Shown piece after piece: positions 1 to 26,236 of a stretch of DNA of 32,752 bases. The stretch comes from Longimicrobium sp. Its GTDB lineage: Bacteria; Gemmatimonadota; Gemmatimonadetes; Longimicrobiales; Longimicrobiaceae. The notes below the pieces were generated by a model. It worked only from the letters and a program-made list of their open reading frames with translations. It ran no database searches and was not told where the DNA came from. Location of the stretch: contig NZ_DATIND010000045.1 in the NCBI RefSeq assembly GCF_035474595.1, positions 1 through 32,752 of the forward strand. Reading direction: 5' to 3'. The translations under genes were made by a program, and so were the position numbers. The number at the start of each line of letters is the position of its first letter. Position 1 is the stretch's first letter.

Positions 1-454
1 GACGGCGATCCGGTGCGCGGGAGACTAGGAGAGCGGCACGGGCGGATTCGGCAGGCGAGCGATGCGGGGGCAGGAAGAGGCGAAGAGACGGGAGCGGCGC
101 GGATCGAGACAGGAGCGAATGAATTCGCGGCTACAACTTCACACTGTCCGCCTCCGCGGACACCACGGATGGGATTCTGCCGCCCGTGGATGTGTCCGTC
201 TGCCGCAGGGCCGGGACGGGGTTGATTTCGAGCAGGAATCGCGGAACATTGTGCGGCGCATCGGGTTTGAGCGATTGGCCCGCCCGGGCCGCGCCTCCTC
301 CATCACCCCTGAAACCGTGCCGCGCGCGCCGCCCGTATCCACGGGAAGCACGGCGCAGCGGCACGCGCCGGAAAATCCGCTCCGGGTGCGCGAACGTCGC
401 CGGTGCACGTCCGCGCCTGCGCCCGGAGAGCCAGAACCGCAGCCGTCGCAGTCC
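1..454. other. Left flank without a supported gene
   Basis: No convincing coding region is seen here on either strand. The long open frames are what 70% GC DNA gives by chance, and the frame running into the next gene lacks protein-like composition before residue 1 of that gene. The stretch holds one copy of a dispersed repeat (115-161). A weak promoter-like pair (TTGATT at 222-227, 17 nt, AACATT at 245-250) could serve the downstream hydrolase, but the -10 matches only half of the consensus. Confidence 0.5.
115..161 (+). repeat. Dispersed repeat, copy A (NSRQQRPEVRLRG-type element)
   Basis: This shares its 5' block (GCGAATGAATTCGCGGC, then ACAAC) and a small hairpin (GTCCGC, loop, GCGGAC) with two further copies at 27991 and 28130. 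The middle eight bases differ from the other copies. The 3' half of the longer copies is not recognisable here, so this is a partial copy. One frame of every copy reads as MNSR..VRLRG, which would produce spurious small-gene calls. Confidence 0.6.
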
Positions 455-1780
455 ATGTCCATCTCGCTCCCCGTCCGCATTGCCGCCGCCGGCGCGCTTA
501 CTGCCGCCGTCGCCGCCACGGCCGTCTCGCTGTCCTACGGGCAGCGCACGCCGTCGCCCGCCGCCACCATCGCGCACATCGCGCCCGTGCGGGCCACGCC
601 GCCGGCACCCCGCGAGGCGCAGGCGGTGACGCCGGGGCTGGAGGTGCTGCTGCGCGACTCGCTGCACCTGGTGCGGGGCAAGCGGGTGGGGCTCATCACC
701 AACCACACGGCCGTCACCCCCGACGGGCGCAGCGCCATCGACCTGCTGCACCAGCATCCGCAGGTACGGCTGGTGGCGCTCTTTGGGCCGGAGCACGGCA
801 TCCGGGGCAACGTAGACGGCGGCGCGCACATCGCTTCGCAGCGCGACGCGCGCACGGGGCTGACCATCCACTCGCTGTACGGCGCCACGCAGCGCCCCAC
901 GCCGGCCATGCTGCGCGGCATCGACGTGCTGCTGTTCGACATGCAGGACATCGGCGCGCGGGCGTACACCTACGTCTGGACGATGACGATGGCGATGGAA
1001 GAGGCCGCAAAGGCCGGCATCCCCTTCATCGTCCTGGACCGCCCGAACCCCGTGACGGCGCGGGTGGAGGGGCCGCTGATGCAGTTCGAGATGCGTAACC
1101 GCGGCCCGCTGATCACCGGGCACTTTCCCGTCCCGCTCCGCCACGGCCTGACGGCGGGCGAGCTCGCGCGGTACGTGAACGGCGAGTACCGTCTGGGCAC
1201 GCGGCTCACGGTGGTGCCGGCGGACGGCTGGCGGGGCGGCGACTGGTTCGACGAGACGGGGCTGCGCTGGATCAACCCGTCGCCCAACATCCGCACGCTG
1301 GACGCGGCGCTCAGCTTCAGCGGGCTGGTGATGCTGGAGACGACCAACCTGAACGTGGGGCGCGGCACCGAGGCGCCGTTCAGCTACGTGGGCGCGCCGT
1401 ACGTGGACGGCGACGCGCTGCTGCGGCGGGTGCGGGCGTACGGCCTGCCGGGCGTGCGCTTCGAGCGGGCCGAGTGGACGCCGCGCGGGAGCGGGTGGAT
1501 GCAGTTCGCGGGGCGGCGCTGCCACGGCGTGCGGCTGGCCATCACCGACCGAGAGGCGTACCAGCCGGTGCTGACCGCGCTGGTGTTCCTGGTGGAGTTG
1601 CGGAAGATGTATCCCGAGCAGCTGGGGATGGGGTCGATGCGGCAGATGCTGGGGAGCGAGTGGGCCCCCGCCGCCGTGCGCGCCGGCGAGGACCCGCGCA
1701 GCATCTTCGCGCGCTGGCAGCAGGAGGACGCGCAGTGGGAGCGCAGCATCGCCCCGTACCGCCTCTACCCCGCGGAGTAG
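455..1780 (+). CDS. namZ: Exported NamZ-type (DUF1343) exo-beta-N-acetylmuramidase
   Basis: 441 aa. The family (DUF1343, now NamZ) removes N-acetylmuramic acid from the non-reducing end of peptidoglycan fragments, a step in wall recycling or turnover. The family hallmarks are visible. FGPEHG (residues 110-115) carries the conserved acidic residue, followed by FDMQDIGARAYTY, VLDRPNP and a C-terminal half with TNLNVGRGTEAPF. I chose ATG 455 because it opens an Ala-rich signal peptide (MSISLPVRIAAAGALTAAV) and the codons upstream lack family similarity; no clear Shine-Dalgarno is seen. The protein is expected in the periplasm. No recycling partners (NagZ, MurQ, AmpG) are in the window, so it stands alone, closed by a strong terminator. 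Family assignment is firm; the exact substrate is inferred. Confidence 0.9.
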   Translation: MSISLPVRIAAAGALTAAVAATAVSLSYGQRTPSPAATIAHIAPVRATPPAPREAQAVTPGLEVLLRDSLHLVRGKRVGLITNHTAVTPDGRSAIDLLHQHPQVRLVALFGPEHGIRGNVDGGAHIASQRDARTGLTIHSLYGATQRPTPAMLRGIDVLLFDMQDIGARAYTYVWTMTMAMEEAAKAGIPFIVLDRPNPVTARVEGPLMQFEMRNRGPLITGHFPVPLRHGLTAGELARYVNGEYRLGTRLTVVPADGWRGGDWFDETGLRWINPSPNIRTLDAALSFSGLVMLETTNLNVGRGTEAPFSYVGAPYVDGDALLRRVRAYGLPGVRFERAEWTPRGSGWMQFAGRRCHGVRLAITDREAYQPVLTALVFLVELRKMYPEQLGMGSMRQMLGSEWAPAAVRAGEDPRSIFARWQQEDAQWERSIAPYRLYPAE

Positions 1781-3699: not shown

Positions 3700-3802
3700 T
3701 CCCGGGCCCCGGGCATCCGCCGAGCCCGCTCGCCTCGTTCGTCCTGTAAAGCTTTCGTGGAGGACCGTCAGACCGAGGCGGGCGCGCGCGTTCACGTGAT
3801 GC

Positions 3803-3832
3803 TTGACGGCGCGCGGGCGGGGGGCTAATCAT
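3803..3832 (+). promoter_or_regulatory. Candidate promoter of blaI-blaR1
   Basis: TTGACG (3803-3808; five of six), an 18-nt spacer and AATCAT (3827-3832; four of six). The predicted start falls at about 3840, on the first base of the palindromic operator. A lone half-site GCTAA sits at 3824-3828. Confidence 0.45.
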
Positions 3833-3839
3833 TCCCCGT

Positions 3840-3853
3840 GCTAGAGATTTAGC
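3840..3853. promoter_or_regulatory. Candidate BlaI-type operator 1 (GCTA-N6-TAGC)
   Basis: GCTAGAGATTTAGC has perfect outer arms GCTA/TAGC. It lies at the predicted transcription start of the repressor gene and has a counterpart of the same 14-nt architecture at 5953-5966. BlaI-family repressors are known to bind short palindromes before their own operon; the assignment to this repressor is inference. Confidence 0.6.
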
Positions 3854-3896
3854 AGCCCACTCCCCACGGGCACCGATTCCCAGATCCCCACCCCCG

Positions 3897-4289
3897 ATGA
3901 ACCGGAACACCGCGCTGAACCAGCTCAGCCGCCGCGAACGGCAGATCATGGATGTGGTCTACCGGATGGGGAAGGCCAGCGTCAGCGAAGTGCTGGAGCG
4001 CCTTCCCGACCCGCCCAGCTACTCCGCGGTCCGCGCGCTCATGCGCATCCTGGAAGAGAAGGGGCACCTGAAACACGAGCAGGACGGGCCCCGTTATCTG
4101 TATCTGCCCATCGTGCCGCGCGACGCCGTGAAGAGCGACGCGCTGAGCCACCTGGTGCGCACCTTCTTCGGCGGCAGCACCGAGGCCGCGGTGGCCGCGC
4201 TGCTGGAGCTGCCGGAGGGAGGCCTGTCGGAGAACGAGCTGGACCGCCTGTCGCAGCTCATCGACGAAGCACGCAAGCAGGGACGCTGA
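3897..4289 (+). CDS. BlaI/MecI/CopY-family transcriptional repressor
   Basis: 130 aa, the normal length for the family. The N-terminal winged helix begins LSRRERQIMDVVYRMGKASV (about residues 10-29) and contains the recognition segment PPSYSAVRALMRILEEKG, followed by a wing (HLKHEQDGPRYLYLP). The C-terminal helices form the dimerisation part. In the family the partner protease inactivates the repressor by cleavage near the domain junction. The stop codon is four bases before the BlaR1-type gene, so both are co-transcribed. Palindromes before this gene and before the DUF5916 gene suggest autoregulation plus control of that outer-membrane protein. No beta-lactamase is nearby, so beta-lactam resistance should not be assumed. 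Confidence 0.93.
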   Translation: MNRNTALNQLSRRERQIMDVVYRMGKASVSEVLERLPDPPSYSAVRALMRILEEKGHLKHEQDGPRYLYLPIVPRDAVKSDALSHLVRTFFGGSTEAAVAALLELPEGGLSENELDRLSQLIDEARKQGR

Positions 4290-4293
4290 CACC

Positions 4294-5895
4294 ATGACCG
4301 CCGCCCCCGCCCTGGCGCCCACGCTGGCGCAAGCCGCCCTGATCCTGGCCAAGTCCACGCTGCTGCTGGGCGCGGCCGCGGGCGGGGCGCGGGCGCTGCG
4401 GCGGGGCTCGGCCGCGGCGCGGCACCTGGTGTGGGCGCTGGCGCTGGGCGGCCTGATGGCGCTCCCCGCGCTCGTCCTCCTCCTCCCCGACTGGAAGCCG
4501 GCGCTCCTCGCCATCCTCCGCCCCCCCGGGTCGGCCGCGGCGTGGACGGCCGCGTCGATCCCGGCCGTCCCCGCATCTCCCCATCCCCTCCTCCTGCTCG
4601 CCGCCGCCGTCTGGGCCGCGGGGGCGCTGGTGGTGCTGGGGAGACTGGGGATGGGGCTCCACGGCGTGCGCAAGCTGGCCCGCGCGGCCGAGCCGGTGAC
4701 GGACCCGCGGTGGACGGAGCTGCTGGAGCGCTTCGCCGCCGCGGTGGGCGTGCGGCGCCCGGTGGCGCTGCTGCGCAGCCGCGAGGCGGCCATGCCGCTC
4801 ACCTGGGGCGCCTTCCGCCCCGCCATCCTCCTTCCCGCCGAGGCCGACGGGTGGAGCGCGAAGCGGCGCCGCGTGGTGCTGCTCCACGAGCTGGCCCACG
4901 TGGCCCGGCGCGACTGCCTGATGCAGCTGGGGGCGGAGATCTGCTGCGCCGTCTACTGGTTCCATCCCGGCGCCTGGTGGGCCGCGCGGCAGATGCGGGT
5001 GGAGCGCGAGCAGGCGTGCGACGACCTGGTCCTCTCGGCCGGCGCCCGCGCGTCGGACTACGCCGGACACCTGCTGGACGTGGCCCGCGCCTACCGCGCG
5101 CCGGCGCTGGCCGCTGCCATTGCCATGGCGCGGCCCAGCCACCTGGAGGGACGGGTGCGCGCGGTGCTCGAGGCCACGCGCGACCGCCGCGCCGTCACCG
5201 GCCGCACCGCCGCCATCTGCGCGGGCGCCGTGCTCCTGGCCACGCTGCCCCTGGCCGCCGTCGCCCCGTCGGAGCGGACGGACGCGCCGCAGGGGGTGGC
5301 GTGGCGGATGCCCGGCGCGCGCACCTGGAACCTGGACCCGGCCACGGGCGAGCGGCTGTCGATCCGCGGGAGCGCCGAGGTGATCCGCGCGCCCCGCCCC
5401 GCCGCCGTGGCGCCCGCGCCCGCCCCGGCCCGCTCCGCCCCCGCCGCGCCGAAGCGCACGCCGCGGCGCCCGCGCCAGCGCGCGCCGGAACCGCGCCCCG
5501 CGCCCACCGTGCGCCTGGCATCCGGCGGCGGCGGGGTGACGGCCACCGTCAGCGGGAACCGCGTGCGCGCCGTCATCTCCGTCCCCCGGGGCGTGCAGGT
5601 GCGGGTGGAGGGCCACGGGGTGCGCGCCACCACCTCGCGCGGGCAGCTGCGGGTGGAGGCCGACCTGGACGCGCTGAACCGGCTGGCCGCGCAGCTCTCG
5701 CGCCACGCCGTCTCCGCCGCCGACTGCCCCAAGGCGCGCGCCGAGCGGGCCAACGCGCAGCGGAAGCTGGGGAACGACGCGCGCCGCGTGGCCATGGGCC
5801 AGAAGCGCGACCTGGGGCTGCGGCTGCTGGGCGAGGTGAGCGGCGGCGTCACCGCCGAGTCCGACGCCGTGGTGGGCGACAGCGGCGGGGCCTGA
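4294..5895 (+). CDS. BlaR1-like M56 membrane metallopeptidase with an unusual C-terminal domain
   Basis: 533 aa. Hydrophobic segments lie near residues 10-28, 45-66 and 90-115, with a fourth near 308-328. Between them is the M56 zinc site HELAH (residues 198-202), with a downstream EREQACDD that supplies the third ligand, and YWFHPGAWWA. In BlaR1/MecR1 the sensor signal activates this domain to relieve BlaI repression. Here no penicillin-binding sensor follows the last membrane segment. A Pro/Ala/Arg-rich linker leads instead to a short beta-rich region (VTATVSGNRVRAVISVPRGV) and a charged helix. The signal is therefore probably not a beta-lactam. It sits four bases after blaI and is closed by a terminator. 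Confidence 0.88.
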   Translation: MTAAPALAPTLAQAALILAKSTLLLGAAAGGARALRRGSAAARHLVWALALGGLMALPALVLLLPDWKPALLAILRPPGSAAAWTAASIPAVPASPHPLLLLAAAVWAAGALVVLGRLGMGLHGVRKLARAAEPVTDPRWTELLERFAAAVGVRRPVALLRSREAAMPLTWGAFRPAILLPAEADGWSAKRRRVVLLHELAHVARRDCLMQLGAEICCAVYWFHPGAWWAARQMRVEREQACDDLVLSAGARASDYAGHLLDVARAYRAPALAAAIAMARPSHLEGRVRAVLEATRDRRAVTGRTAAICAGAVLLATLPLAAVAPSERTDAPQGVAWRMPGARTWNLDPATGERLSIRGSAEVIRAPRPAAVAPAPAPARSAPAAPKRTPRRPRQRAPEPRPAPTVRLASGGGGVTATVSGNRVRAVISVPRGVQVRVEGHGVRATTSRGQLRVEADLDALNRLAAQLSRHAVSAADCPKARAERANAQRKLGNDARRVAMGQKRDLGLRLLGEVSGGVTAESDAVVGDSGGA

Positions 5896-5911
5896 CCGCA
5901 GCGAAGGAGCG

Positions 5912-5938
5912 ACCGCCGGGGAAGTCCGCGGCGGTTTT
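5912..5938 (+). terminator. Rho-independent terminator of the blaI-blaR1 operon
   Basis: ACCGCCG (5912-5918) pairs with CGGCGGT (5929-5935) across a 10-nt loop and is followed by a short T run (5935-5938). It separates blaR1 from the next promoter region. Confidence 0.7.
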
Positions 5939-5950
5939 CTCCGCCGGGTG

Positions 5951-5979
5951 ATGCTAAAATATTAGCGGGCGATTAGCAT
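5951..5979. promoter_or_regulatory. Candidate BlaI-type operator 2, before the DUF5916 gene
   Basis: GCTAAAATATTAGC (5953-5966) has the same GCTA-N6-TAGC arms as the site before blaI. An extra half-site TTAGCAT (5973-5979) mirrors ATGCTAA (5951-5957), so three half-sites are present. The TAAAAT inside the site could be a -10 element. The distance to the next start codon is about 340 nt. Confidence 0.6.
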
Positions 5980-6304
5980 CCCCCCGAACCCACGCTTCGT
6001 CCCCGCCGGACGGGCAGTTCGCGGCACCGGGCAAGCGGTTGGCGCTGCAACGCTTGCGCGCTGGCGGAGATAGGCGATTTTTCAGGATGCCGGAAACGGC
6101 TGCGCGGCGGTCCCTCCGGGGAGCGCCAGAGCCGCCGGAGGGTTTACAACCTTCCGGGCGATGGGTGAATCAAACTCCCGTCTCCGCGCGTACGGCCGCG
6201 CCGTATCCCCGCGAGACGGTCCGGGCAGGACCTTTGACCTTAGATCCCGCAGGCGCCCCGGTCCCTGCGCCTCTTTACCCTCTCCCCCGCTGGAGAACAC
6301 CCCG
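5980..6304 (+). other. Long untranslated leader before the DUF5916 gene
   Basis: No protein-like frame is seen. The stretch includes a stable hairpin (CCCTCCGG at 6113-6120 with CCGGAGGG at 6136-6143) and further GC-rich inverted segments. I could not match it to a riboswitch class that I know. It may be a structured 5' leader if transcription starts at the operator near 5953. Confidence 0.35.
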
Positions 6305-8926
6305 ATGTTCGATCGCACCTCGTCGCGCATGGCCCTGCTGGCCGCGGCGTTGCTGGCGGCCCGCCCCGCCCTTGCGCAGCAGGTCGCCGCCACCTCCGGG
6401 CAGCCCCCGGCGCGCGGCGCCACCGCCGGCTCGCCGCAGCGCACCCTGCGCGCCGCCGCCGCCACCGAGATCCACATGGACGGGAAGCTGGACGAGGCCG
6501 CCTGGGCCACGGCCGCCCCCGCCGGCGACTTCGTGCAGCAGTCGCCCAGCGACGGCAGCCCCGCCACGCTGCGCACCGAGGCGCGCGTGCTCTTCGACGG
6601 CGAGAACCTGTACGTGGGGATGCGGATGCACGACCCGCATCCCGACTCGATCATGGCGCAGCTCACCCGCCGCGACCAGGGCTCCGAGTCCGACGGCGCG
6701 CGGGTGTTCATCGACAGCTACAACGACAAGCGCACCGCCTTCGTCTTCGGCCTCAATCCCAAGGGCGTGAAGGAAGACTTCCTGCGCTACAACGACGGCG
6801 AGGGGATCGACTCGGACTGGGACGCGGTGTGGGACGGCGCCGCGCACGTGGACAGCGCCGGGTGGACCGCCGAGTTCCGCATCCCCCTCTCGCAGCTGCG
6901 CTTCAACGCCGCCGCGGTGAACGCGGGCGGGCGCTGGGGGCTGAACTTCCGCCGCTACCTGCCGCGCCGCGGCGAGGTGGACTTCTGGAGCCCCATCGCC
7001 GCCAACTCCAACGCCTTCGTCTCGCTCTTCGGCGAGCTGGACGGGCTGCAGGGCCTCAGGCAGGCGCACCGGCTGGAGGTGATGCCGTACGTGAGCAGCA
7101 AGCTGGACCACCTCCCCACCGCCGACCGCACCCACTTCCGGGGTGCCAGCACCTTCGCGGGGGGGATGGGCGCGGACCTGAAGGCCGGGCTTCCCGGCGG
7201 GCTGACCCTGTCGGCCACCATCAACCCCGACTTCGGGCAGGTGGAGGTGGACCCCGCGGTGGTGAACCTGTCGGCGTTCGAGACCTTCTTCCCCGAGCGG
7301 CGGCCGTTCTTCGTGGAGGGCGCCGACATCTTCCAGTTCGGCAACCTGAACACCTTCAACAGCTACGGCTTCACGCAGTTCTTCTACTCGCGCCGCATCG
7401 GCCGCTCGCCGCAGGGCGCCATCCGGCTGGACGACGTGGACGAGGAGCACGCCCCCGACGCGACGACGATCCTGGGCGCCGGCAAGGTGAGCGGGAAGAT
7501 CGGCGGGTGGTCGCTGGGCTTCATGGACGCGCTGACCAACCGCGAGAACGGCCAGTACCGCACCTCGGGCGGGGTGGACGGGCGCTACCCCGTGGAGCCG
7601 CTGACCAACTACTTCGTGGGGCGGGTGCGGCGCGACTTCCACAAGGGCGCCACGGTGGTGGGGGGGATGGTGACCGGGGTGGGGCGCGACCTGCGCGGCA
7701 ACGAGTTCGACCCCTTCCTGCGCTCGCGCGCGGCGATGTTCGGGCTCGACGGCTCGCACAGCTGGGGGAACCGCGACTGGACGCTCTCCGGCTACCTGGC
7801 GGGAACGCGGGTGAGCGGCTCGGCCGACGCCATCGCGCGGACGCAGCGGGCGGCGGCGCACTACTACAACCGGCCGGACGCCGACTACCTGACCTACGAC
7901 CCCACGCGCACCTCGCTGGACGGGCACGACGCTGGCTTGTCCCTCAGCCACAGCGGCAAGTGGGACATGTCGGCCACGTACGTGGAGGTGAGCCCGGGGT
8001 TCGAGACCAACGACATCGGGTTCATGAACCGGGGCGACTACCGCGCCTTCAGCACCTTCTACGGACAGCGCAACAACACGCTCACGCCCACCTTCCGCAA
8101 CCGCACCGCGTACATCTACCACAACGCGGCGTGGAACTTCGGCGGCGACGTGATCTACAACGGCGTGGGCACCGGGCTGCAGGCGCAGTGGAAGAACTTC
8201 TGGTACAGCCAGCTGAGCGGCACGGTGACGCTTCCCCGCTGGGACGACCGCTCCACGCGCGGCGGGCCGGCCATCCGCCGCGCCGGCGGGTGGACCGTGA
8301 ACGCCTACCAGAGCACCGACGGGCGCAAGCCGCTGTCGTTCGACCTGTCGGCGGGCCTGGGCGCCGACGGCGACGGCGGGTGGAGCCGCAACGCCGGCGT
8401 GAGCGCCACCTACCGCCCCACCTCGTCGGTGCGGGTGAGCGTGGGGCCCAGCCTGACGCGGTCGCGCAACCCCACGCAGTGGGTGGACACGCAGGAGGAC
8501 CCCACGGCCACGGCCACCTACGGCAACCGCTACATCTTCGCCACGGTGGACGCCACCGAGCTGGCCATGGACACGCGGCTGGACTGGACGTTCACGCCCA
8601 CGCTGTCGCTGCAGCTGTTCGCGCAGCCGTTCGTCTCGAGCAACGACTTCCACGGCTACCGCTCGCTGGCGCGGCCGCGCAGCTACGACTTCGACCCCTT
8701 CGCCACCACCTCGGACGACGACTTCACCTTCGCCTCACTGCGCGGCAACGCGGTGCTGCGCTGGGAGTACCGGCCGGGAAGCACGCTCTTCTTCGTGTGG
8801 CAGCAGGACCGCAACGGCGTGACCGACGAGGGCCAGTTCCGCCTGGGCGACGGGATCAGCAACGTGTTCGACCGCGGCTCGCGCAACGTCTTCCTGATCA
8901 AGGCCACCTACTGGCTGAACCGGTAG
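6305..8926 (+). CDS. DUF5916 outer-membrane protein with N-terminal CBM9-like domain
   Basis: 873 aa. A signal peptide (MFDRTSSRMALLAAALLAAR, cut after PALA) is followed by a carbohydrate-binding family 9-like domain. Its hallmarks are IHMDGKLDEAAWATA (about residues 57-71), LYVGMRMHDPHPDSI and WTAEFRIPLSQLRF. The remaining 600 residues are DUF5916, rich in aromatic-ended beta strands (NPDFGQVEVDPAVVNLSAFE, FFPERRPFFVEGADIF), and end in a hydrophobic strand, as expected for an outer-membrane barrel. The function of the family is unknown. GGAGA at 6291-6295 supports the start. The upstream operator resembles the one before blaI, so this is probably the target of that repressor. A strong hairpin follows the stop codon. 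Confidence 0.88.
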   Translation: MFDRTSSRMALLAAALLAARPALAQQVAATSGQPPARGATAGSPQRTLRAAAATEIHMDGKLDEAAWATAAPAGDFVQQSPSDGSPATLRTEARVLFDGENLYVGMRMHDPHPDSIMAQLTRRDQGSESDGARVFIDSYNDKRTAFVFGLNPKGVKEDFLRYNDGEGIDSDWDAVWDGAAHVDSAGWTAEFRIPLSQLRFNAAAVNAGGRWGLNFRRYLPRRGEVDFWSPIAANSNAFVSLFGELDGLQGLRQAHRLEVMPYVSSKLDHLPTADRTHFRGASTFAGGMGADLKAGLPGGLTLSATINPDFGQVEVDPAVVNLSAFETFFPERRPFFVEGADIFQFGNLNTFNSYGFTQFFYSRRIGRSPQGAIRLDDVDEEHAPDATTILGAGKVSGKIGGWSLGFMDALTNRENGQYRTSGGVDGRYPVEPLTNYFVGRVRRDFHKGATVVGGMVTGVGRDLRGNEFDPFLRSRAAMFGLDGSHSWGNRDWTLSGYLAGTRVSGSADAIARTQRAAAHYYNRPDADYLTYDPTRTSLDGHDAGLSLSHSGKWDMSATYVEVSPGFETNDIGFMNRGDYRAFSTFYGQRNNTLTPTFRNRTAYIYHNAAWNFGGDVIYNGVGTGLQAQWKNFWYSQLSGTVTLPRWDDRSTRGGPAIRRAGGWTVNAYQSTDGRKPLSFDLSAGLGADGDGGWSRNAGVSATYRPTSSVRVSVGPSLTRSRNPTQWVDTQEDPTATATYGNRYIFATVDATELAMDTRLDWTFTPTLSLQLFAQPFVSSNDFHGYRSLARPRSYDFDPFATTSDDDFTFASLRGNAVLRWEYRPGSTLFFVWQQDRNGVTDEGQFRLGDGISNVFDRGSRNVFLIKATYWLNR

Positions 8927-23484: not shown

Positions 23485-23685
23485 TCAGCCCCTGGAGCAG
23501 CCGTTTTCGGTGACCGCGCACCAGTTCGTTCCGCAGCACTTCGTCCGTTCCCGCTCGCAGCAGTAGTCTCCCGACTGGATGGGCGCCGGCGCGAGGGTGG
23601 CGCCCGCCCGCGCCGGGTGCCCCGCCTGCAGCACCCCGGCGGCGCACAGCGTAACCGCGAACATGATCAGGTTCATGCCTCTCAT
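23485..23685 (-). CDS. Exported cysteine-rich mini-protein 1
   Basis: 66 aa. The start at 23685 has a perfect Shine-Dalgarno (GGAGGAG, about 8 nt upstream). A signal peptide (NLIMFAVTLCAAGVLQAG, likely cut before or after PARA) is followed by a proline-containing spacer. The C-terminal core has six cysteines in the order CC-x6-CC-x4-C-x6-C (residues 42, 43, 50, 51, 56, 63). It shares this pattern, the PARA segment and exact positions of the last two cysteines with the neighbouring mini-protein. Family unknown to me. Three disulfides, formed by the DsbA-like protein encoded downstream, are a reasonable inference. It could be a toxin, signal or structural peptide; nothing in the sequence decides. 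Confidence 0.75.
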   Translation of the reverse strand: MRGMNLIMFAVTLCAAGVLQAGHPARAGATLAPAPIQSGDYCCERERTKCCGTNWCAVTENGCSRG

Positions 23686-23764
23686 CGGTATGCTCCTCCA
23701 TGCGTTGTGATGAATGCCGGGAACCGCCCGGTGAGTGCCGTGAAAGCGGGCCGGCGGCCGCGAT

Positions 23765-23968
23765 TCAGCCAATCTTGTAGCACCCGCTGCCGTTGATGTA
23801 GCACCCGGTCCAGTAGCAGCACCGGAGCGCCCTGGTGGTGTCCGAGCAGCACGAGAGCACGGCGAACGGGCTGGGCGACATGGTGGCCCGGGCCGGCGTG
23901 GGGCGGGCGAGCACGGCGCCGGACGCCAGGGTGCAGGCGAGCGCCGCGAGACGGATCATCCGCTTCAT
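23765..23968 (-). CDS. Exported cysteine-rich mini-protein 2
   Basis: 67 aa. ATG 23968 follows GGAGG (23974-23978 on the plus strand as CCTCC). A signal peptide (MKRMIRLAALACTLASGAVL) leads to PARATMSPSP and a C-terminal cysteine core CC-x8-CC-x4-C-x6-C (residues 40, 41, 50, 51, 56, 63) with aromatic and glycine residues (YWTGCYINGSGCYKIG). It is a paralogue of mini-protein 1 by pattern, diverged in most other residues. It is first in the minus-strand group, 79 nt before its paralogue. No protease-cleavage leader (double glycine) is evident, so Sec export with signal peptidase I is the simplest route. Function unknown. Confidence 0.75.
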   Translation of the reverse strand: MKRMIRLAALACTLASGAVLARPTPARATMSPSPFAVLSCCSDTTRALRCCYWTGCYINGSGCYKIG

Positions 23969-24159
23969 TGAGTCCTCCGGTATTTCATGTGGGTGGAAAG
24001 CTCCGCGAGGGAGCAACGGGGTCCCAGTGACCCCGGAGATTTCGACCCCTGAACCCCGCGCCGTGGATCGTGCGAGCGGTGCGACCGAGTGTCCTGCGGC
24101 GAGCGGATTACCCCCAAAGAATCGGCCCGCGATCGGGTAGCTGGCGCACGCCGGGTGTA

Positions 24160-25579: not shown

Positions 25580-25984
25580 CTACCGCGACAAGGGTTGGAG
25601 GCGCTCACCCACCCAGGTGGCGAGTTCTCCCTCGCTTACACCTCCTGCGGCAAGCTGCTCGAATATCAACACAGCCTCGGCTTCGGTCGCTCCCAGCCGA
25701 AATCCATTCCTTCTAAGGAATACGAGCAATGCGGCCAAGCCGACACGCTTGTTCCCGTCGATGTAGCCGTGGTTCTTCACAAGCGCAAAGGCATAAGCTG
25801 CAGAAAGTTCAGCAATCCCGCACTCCTCGCCGGCATAAGCGAAACGGTTCAGCGGACGGGCGAGTGCCGACTCGATGAGGGCCGAATCGCGCACGCCGTG
25901 CGAGCCGCCGTGCTCGTCGATCAGCGCGGCGTGCATCGCGTCGACCGACCGGCGACCCAACCAGTTCGGCTCCGGAATGCTCAC
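25580..25984 (-). CDS. doc: Doc-type toxin (Fic fold, death-on-curing family)
   Basis: 134 aa, the usual Doc length. The Fic signature reads HGYIDGNKR (residues 72-80), matching the Doc variant that phosphorylates elongation factor Tu rather than AMPylating targets. The helix SAAYAFALVKNHG before the signature is also conserved. The GTG start overlaps the antitoxin stop by four bases (GTGA), so toxin translation is coupled to antitoxin. The usual partner is Phd; here the antitoxin is an AbrB/MazE-type protein, a combination known from other Doc homologues. All key residues look intact, so the toxin is probably active. It is transcribed away from the phosphatase gene region. Confidence 0.92.
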   Translation of the reverse strand: MSIPEPNWLGRRSVDAMHAALIDEHGGSHGVRDSALIESALARPLNRFAYAGEECGIAELSAAYAFALVKNHGYIDGNKRVGLAALLVFLRRNGFRLGATEAEAVLIFEQLAAGGVSEGELATWVGERLQPLSR

Positions 25985-26205
25985 TTGGCAAGTTCACGGA
26001 AGGCGTTGCGGAACTCGCGCCGCACCTCCTCGAACGCCGCCATTGTCTCCTCGAACTCTGGATCGTACGGCGTTACCACATACTCGCCGTTCCGTTTCAC
26101 GAAGAACAGCGTGTCCCCGATGTCCGCGTGGATCTCATCGAGGAATTCCTTCGGAAACGTAGCGCCCGCCGATCCACCCATCCGGCGAAGCTGGATCTTG
26201 TGCAT
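25981..26205 (-). CDS. AbrB/MazE-type antitoxin
   Basis: 74 aa from ATG 26205, supported by GGAGG at 26212-26216 (as CCTCC). The N-terminal swapped-hairpin DNA-binding domain reads KIQLRRMGGSAGATFPKEFL then IGDTLFFVKRNGEYVVTPYD. The C-terminal helix (FEETMAAFEEVRREFRNAFR) would wrap the toxin. It is first in the operon, with the stop inside the Doc start. AT-rich direct repeats just upstream are the likely autoregulatory site. Confidence 0.88.
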   Translation of the reverse strand: MHKIQLRRMGGSAGATFPKEFLDEIHADIGDTLFFVKRNGEYVVTPYDPEFEETMAAFEEVRREFRNAFRELAK

Positions 26206-26236
26206 GCTCAACCTCCAAGTGGTAGTTCCTGACATC

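Follow-up and report, generated by a model that had tools for sequence, protein, structure and literature searches.

The BlaI/BlaR1 relay, as described for Staphylococcus aureus, runs from a signal through BlaR1 activation and BlaI cleavage to derepression (reviewed in PMC7593790). In Clostridium thermocellum, BlaI_0696 and BlaI_1845 govern small autoregulated regulons with paired inverted repeats 5´ of their targets (PMC8457756), and among the targets of the Mycobacterium tuberculosis BlaI, Rv1846c, are a gene linked to ATP synthase and one for cell division (PMC12565901). Annotations, including those of environmental genomes, usually label BlaI/BlaR1 pairs as regulators of antibiotic resistance; the pair described here appears instead to control a non-resistance regulon. 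It comes from Longimicrobium sp., a member of the Gemmatimonadota, a little-studied phylum of soil bacteria. The stretch of DNA analyzed (the window) is one whole contig, C45, of 32,752 nt from a host genome (G000) of 6.57 Mb. We computed the operator, its tie to blaI and to a DUF5916 gene, and the architectures of the encoded proteins.

The first-pass annotation had claimed that one 14-nt palindrome, GCTA-N6-TAGC, lies at the predicted start of the blaI transcript and before the DUF5916 gene, with extra half-sites at both places. All of these elements are present (Table 1), and when the whole window was scanned, the boxes at 3840 and 5953 were its only exact matches, against 0.10 expected from dinucleotide shuffles; 0 of 100 shuffles contained two. 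A promoter scan of 3700-6400 returned the TTGACG at 3803 as the sole sigma-70-like match. The blaI box starts 37 nt after TTGAC and occupies the equivalent position in G011, the nearest relative, and in other relatives, while the half-site upstream of it, at a position where relatives have a complete first operator, is read as a degenerate one that would overlap the -10 region. A stable U-run hairpin lies ahead of the DUF5916 box, which makes it probable that this gene forms a separate transcription unit, although the hairpin was not called by a consensus scan. From this box to the DUF5916 start codon (6305) there are 339 nt; no sigma-70-like promoter was called at the box within 3700-6400, and no RNA element was found in the leader by Rfam.

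Table 1. Features of the blaI/DUF5916 locus and other annotated elements of the window
Feature	Position	Strand	Evidence or remark
NamZ exo-beta-N-acetylmuramidase, a cell-wall recycling enzyme	62-1780	+	upstream of the locus
-35-like TTGACG of the blaI promoter	3803-3808	+	sigma-70-like scan
Half-site GCTAAT	3824-3829	+	21 nt after TTGAC, the commonest first-operator position in relatives
Candidate operator GCTAGAGATTTAGC, 5´ of blaI	3840-3853	.	exact match to GCTA-N6-TAGC
blaI, BlaI/MecI/CopY family repressor, 130 aa	3897-4289	+	PF03965, 96 bits; matches MecI 1sd6 and 1okr by sequence
blaR1-like M56 metalloprotease, 533 aa	4294-5895	+	PF05569; four TM segments; HELAH at residues 198-202
Terminator-like hairpin with U-run, between blaR1 and the DUF5916 box	5906-5942	+	-24.7 kcal/mol, z -3.6
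Candidate operator GCTAAAATATTAGC, 5´ of the DUF5916 gene	5953-5966	.	exact match to GCTA-N6-TAGC
Extra half-site ATTAGC	5972-5977	+	read directly from the sequence
DUF5916 gene, 873 aa, predicted outer-membrane beta-barrel	6305-8926	+	PF19313, PF06452 (CBM9_1); signal-peptide-like hydrophobic N-terminus, CBM9-like domain
Two adjacent secreted-looking cysteine-rich proteins (95 and 83 aa)	23485-24016	-	no Pfam match
Fic/Doc protein with upstream MazE/AbrB-like partner, toxin-antitoxin-like pair	25580-26235	-	partner below cut-off
Group II intron match near contig end	32620-32706	-	52 bits vs gathering 40

The BlaI, M56 and DUF5916 domains, together with CBM9_1 in the DUF5916 protein, were all confirmed. 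The Penicillinase_R winged-helix domain is full-length in BlaI (1-115 of 115), and the dyad at its own promoter would provide the autoregulatory operator characteristic of the BlaI/MecI family; the protein falls below the cut-offs of the resistance-type curated models (BlaI_of_BCL, 28.5 of 180 bits; MecI_of_mecA, 20.5 of 250 bits). Like BlaR1/MecR1 proteins, the product of the second gene combines an M56 domain bearing HEXXH with membrane helices. The core of its predicted structure is confident and matches the S. aureus BlaR1 cryo-EM structure in a fold comparison, although a PDB sequence search with the BlaR1 profile found no real relative. PF19313 scores 210.9 bits in the DUF5916 protein (cut-off 22.6), whose structural model, of modest overall confidence, comprises a CBM9-like domain and a long-stranded barrel (mean pLDDT 63, the C-terminal third mostly 70-90). 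Its best matches are 6r2q (Mtr complex), porins and ferric receptors, and the CBM9-like domain resembles 7nwn; the protein is thus predicted to carry a CBM9-like domain on an outer-membrane barrel.

A scan of the host genome, as proposed in the first-pass annotation, returned 11 GCTA-N6-TAGC sites in 6.57 Mb, against a mean of 2.6 for the other spacings of GCTA-Nx-TAGC (x = 1 to 13). Apart from blaI-blaR1 and the DUF5916 gene of C45, the boxes precede two more DUF5916 genes (C142 and C143) and genes for an M16 peptidase, an M13 peptidase, an HtrA-type protease and a VIT/vWA protein; a TonB-dependent receptor gene ~250 nt from its box is a doubtful target. The description of DUF5916 as the only other gene with the box therefore holds for the window only. 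No sensible target was found for the sites at C47 and C98, and two to three of the 11 boxes (these two and perhaps one at C23) look unrelated.

BlaI homologues are present in 20 of the 21 genomes of the family, Longimicrobiaceae, and most close blaI orthologues carry the box upstream, with the six spacer bases varying. In G011, blaI has the box 5´, as do the M16 and VIT/vWA genes and the DUF5916 orthologues, and GCTAAAATATTAGC recurs unchanged at the counterpart of the window DUF5916 gene; the M13 box deviates at one position, and only half-sites are left of the HtrA box. As a conserved target HtrA was rejected, the full box occurring in this genome only and half-sites at most in relatives. 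Further box targets in relatives are genes for DUF5916 and M16 proteins, MoxR ATPases, S9, M61 and Met-zincin peptidases, a YfbK-type vWA protein and DsbD. Five relatives together have 54 N6 sites, compared with 18.7 per other spacing. Placement was compared in six Longimicrobiaceae (G000, G009 and G011-G014), between the 63 N6 sites listed (two of G014 lie outside the list) and 87 control sites, drawn in the relatives from spacings 7-9 and in G000 from every spacing between 1 and 13 except 6. Boxes stood 5´ of DUF5916 at 13 of the 63 N6 sites (11 genes) and at none of the 87 controls (Fisher p 5.7e-6), and 5´ of blaI at 11 of 63 (10 genes) and 0 of 87 (p 4.1e-5); these p-values are slightly optimistic because members of tandem pairs were counted separately. 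This placement and the same pairing in relatives bear out the suggested link between BlaI/BlaR1 and DUF5916 through the box, and the refuting condition set in the first-pass annotation, a motif that is common at random sites, fails against the spacing controls and placement tests.

The box extends well beyond the family. Among 80 loci from named genomes, which were picked by BlaI similarity rather than by box and are not independent samples, N6 boxes numbered 92, vs 18 in total for the twelve other spacings. When family genomes and named loci are combined, a perfect GCTA palindrome lies upstream of at least 67 of 104 distinct BlaIs, usually in the form TGCTA-N6-TAGCA, and box-bearing BlaIs occur in Gemmatimonadota, Acidobacteriota, Planctomycetota, Aminicenantes, Myxococcota and others. 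Of 90 blaI promoters, 71 have TTGAC ahead of the box; box starts in the blaI promoters of relatives cluster 19-22 and 37-41 nt after TTGAC, and tandem boxes, 16-19 nt apart, are frequent. The half-site and box of the window, at 21 and 37 nt, occupy the two preferred positions.

The operator covaries with the recognition helix of BlaI. Where x in the helix YSAVRAx is Ala, GCTG-N6-CAGC was found in all eight BlaIs, and where x is another residue, GCTA-N6-TAGC was found in 66 and GCTG in 3, a covariation inflated by shared ancestry. A single residue of the recognition helix appears to set operator specificity, and the GCTA-N6-TAGC boxes are very probably the operators of the C45-type BlaI subfamily. 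A separate pattern, GCTGA-N4-TCAGC, is shared by the blaI on C91 and the neighboring DUF5916 gene and occurs just four times in the host genome; judged by sequence, C91 is a second BlaI-DUF5916 pair with its own putative operator. Other arrangements were also noted. At loci L071 and L072 the palindrome TGCCA-N6-TGGCA lies upstream of blaI (helix ATAVRTMLRIL, read in L071), a further helix-operator type. The distant paralogue on C92 (L165) has tandem TACGA-N6-TCGTA-like palindromes upstream, with blaR1 and then a DUF5916 gene downstream, and an inverted repeat with perfect 8-nt arms, GCTACGGG-TTCT-CCCGTAGC (G000:C50:7775-7794), lies ~41 nt 5´ of a divergent blaI and is perhaps its operator.

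The host genome has seven DUF5916 genes, and five of them can be linked to a BlaI, through a GCTA box in three cases, a GCTGA box in one and a location behind blaR1 in another. In seven Gemmatimonadota loci the DUF5916 start lies no more than ~110 nt from the blaR1 stop, which suggests one operon, and G014:C23 and G000:C92 look like the same arrangement. Several Gemmatimonadota thus have a compact blaI-blaR1-DUF5916 cluster, whereas the window species has a separate box for DUF5916; full boxes directly 5´ of DUF5916 were mostly not found in distant Gemmatimonadota, where the gene usually comes right after blaR1. A literature search that left out most subscription journals found no paper on DUF5916 or linking BlaI to it, and leads for Bacteroidota M56/BlaI proved to be false word matches (catalogue number M5625; "Blair", "Blanvillain").

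We consider it likely that BlaI reads GCTA-N6-TAGC and represses blaI-blaR1, DUF5916 and a regulon of outer-membrane and secreted proteins, and that BlaR1 cuts BlaI; BlaI binding, repression and cleavage are proposed by analogy. BlaI bound around the -10 element and start site of the blaI promoter would repress its own blaI-blaR1 operon, and BlaI at 5953-5966 would repress the DUF5916 gene as a separate transcription unit behind the hairpin. Elsewhere in the genome it would repress two more DUF5916 barrels, the M16 and M13 peptidases, the VIT/vWA protein and possibly the HtrA-type protease. By homology to S. aureus, the C-terminal part of BlaR1 may sense something outside the inner membrane, upon which its M56 protease, facing the cytoplasm, would cleave BlaI and so induce the regulon. 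The leading candidates for the signal are damaged envelope proteins and an extracellular substrate, either peptide or glycan. The second of these is a refinement rather than an exclusive alternative: instead of responding to envelope stress, BlaR1 would detect a product of extracellular protein or glycan, and the DUF5916 barrel and secreted peptidases would serve in uptake and digestion. The CBM9-like domain on a predicted outer-membrane barrel fits such foraging, as do the S9, M61 and Met-zincin peptidases and TonB-dependent receptors among the targets in relatives, but the HtrA-type protease here and the MoxR, vWA and DsbD-type genes in relatives suit envelope upkeep equally, and we regard foraging as plausible while leaning somewhat against it.

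Homology to BlaI/BlaR1 could also mean an ordinary switch for beta-lactam resistance, its resistance gene having escaped notice. This seems very unlikely to us: no penicillin-binding or class-D-like beta-lactam sensor domain is present in 26 orthologues, whose C-terminal parts vary (HEAT repeats in three); the NCBIfam blaR1_generic model aligns to the protease part only (residues 104-323; 94 bits vs a cut-off of 400); and no beta-lactamase gene was recognized behind the boxes examined. Beta-lactam sensing was rejected on this domain evidence, and a beta-lactam is an unlikely signal because the sensor domain is missing. With nine full-length BlaI proteins in the host genome, the box might be read by a paralogue or another regulator, with the C45 blaI merely one of its targets, but among the host blaI genes examined GCTA-N6-TAGC occurs at C45 only, the paralogues on C9, C91 and C92 have visibly different palindromes, and the BlaI helix covaries with the box, leaving another reader quite unlikely. 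The 5953 box could be a remnant of an ancestral blaI-blaR1-DUF5916 operon, with an unrelated promoter within the 339-nt leader now driving the gene. The long leader, the lack of a clear promoter call at the box and the operon arrangement in relatives favor this, but the box is unchanged in G011 and the boxes of two unlinked host DUF5916 genes lie 27 and 150 nt from the gene starts, and we think a remnant improbable. Least credible of all is chance, that is, two AT-rich palindromes in a GC-rich genome: the genome total of 11 is not above the ~20 given by scaling up the window shuffle rate, but the spacing controls, the placement 5´ of blaI and DUF5916 and the conservation across phyla refute it.

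We suggest tentatively, with the case close to evenly balanced, that GCTA-N6-TAGC is read by a BlaI/M56 relay lacking the beta-lactam sensor, a system for envelope surveillance or extracellular proteolysis that is widespread in Gemmatimonadota, Acidobacteriota, Planctomycetota, Aminicenantes and Myxococcota. DUF5916 barrels would be its signature product in the Gemmatimonadota, and paralogous relays whose helix and operator have changed would run side by side in a single cell. The analysis provides a testable operator with one residue that apparently sets its specificity, a functional context for the DUF5916 family and a candidate envelope or nutrient signaling route in phyla for which few such routes are known.

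The Longimicrobium pair resembles S. aureus BlaI/BlaR1 and MecI/MecR1 in its adjacent winged-helix repressor and M56 membrane protease, its dyad operator at a putatively autoregulated promoter and its BlaR1 core fold. It differs in the missing beta-lactam sensor domain, in having no beta-lactamase found behind its boxes and in its Gram-negative host, with outer-membrane and secreted-peptidase targets. The operator of S. aureus BlaI/MecI also differs from GCTA-N6-TAGC. Small, apparently autoregulated BlaI regulons with paired inverted repeats are common to C. thermocellum BlaI_0696/BlaI_1845 and Longimicrobium, whereas the C. thermocellum repeats are GTCTAT/GACTAT, with one to three target operons and no outer membrane (PMC8457756). 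M. tuberculosis Rv1846c likewise is a BlaI controlling non-resistance genes, but without DUF5916 (PMC12565901). In regulated-proteolysis relays such as those of DegS/RseP and anti-sigma factors, as in the one proposed here, a membrane protease converts a signal from outside into a transcriptional response (PMC7593790), although the presumed substrate in Longimicrobium is a cytosolic repressor rather than an anti-sigma factor.
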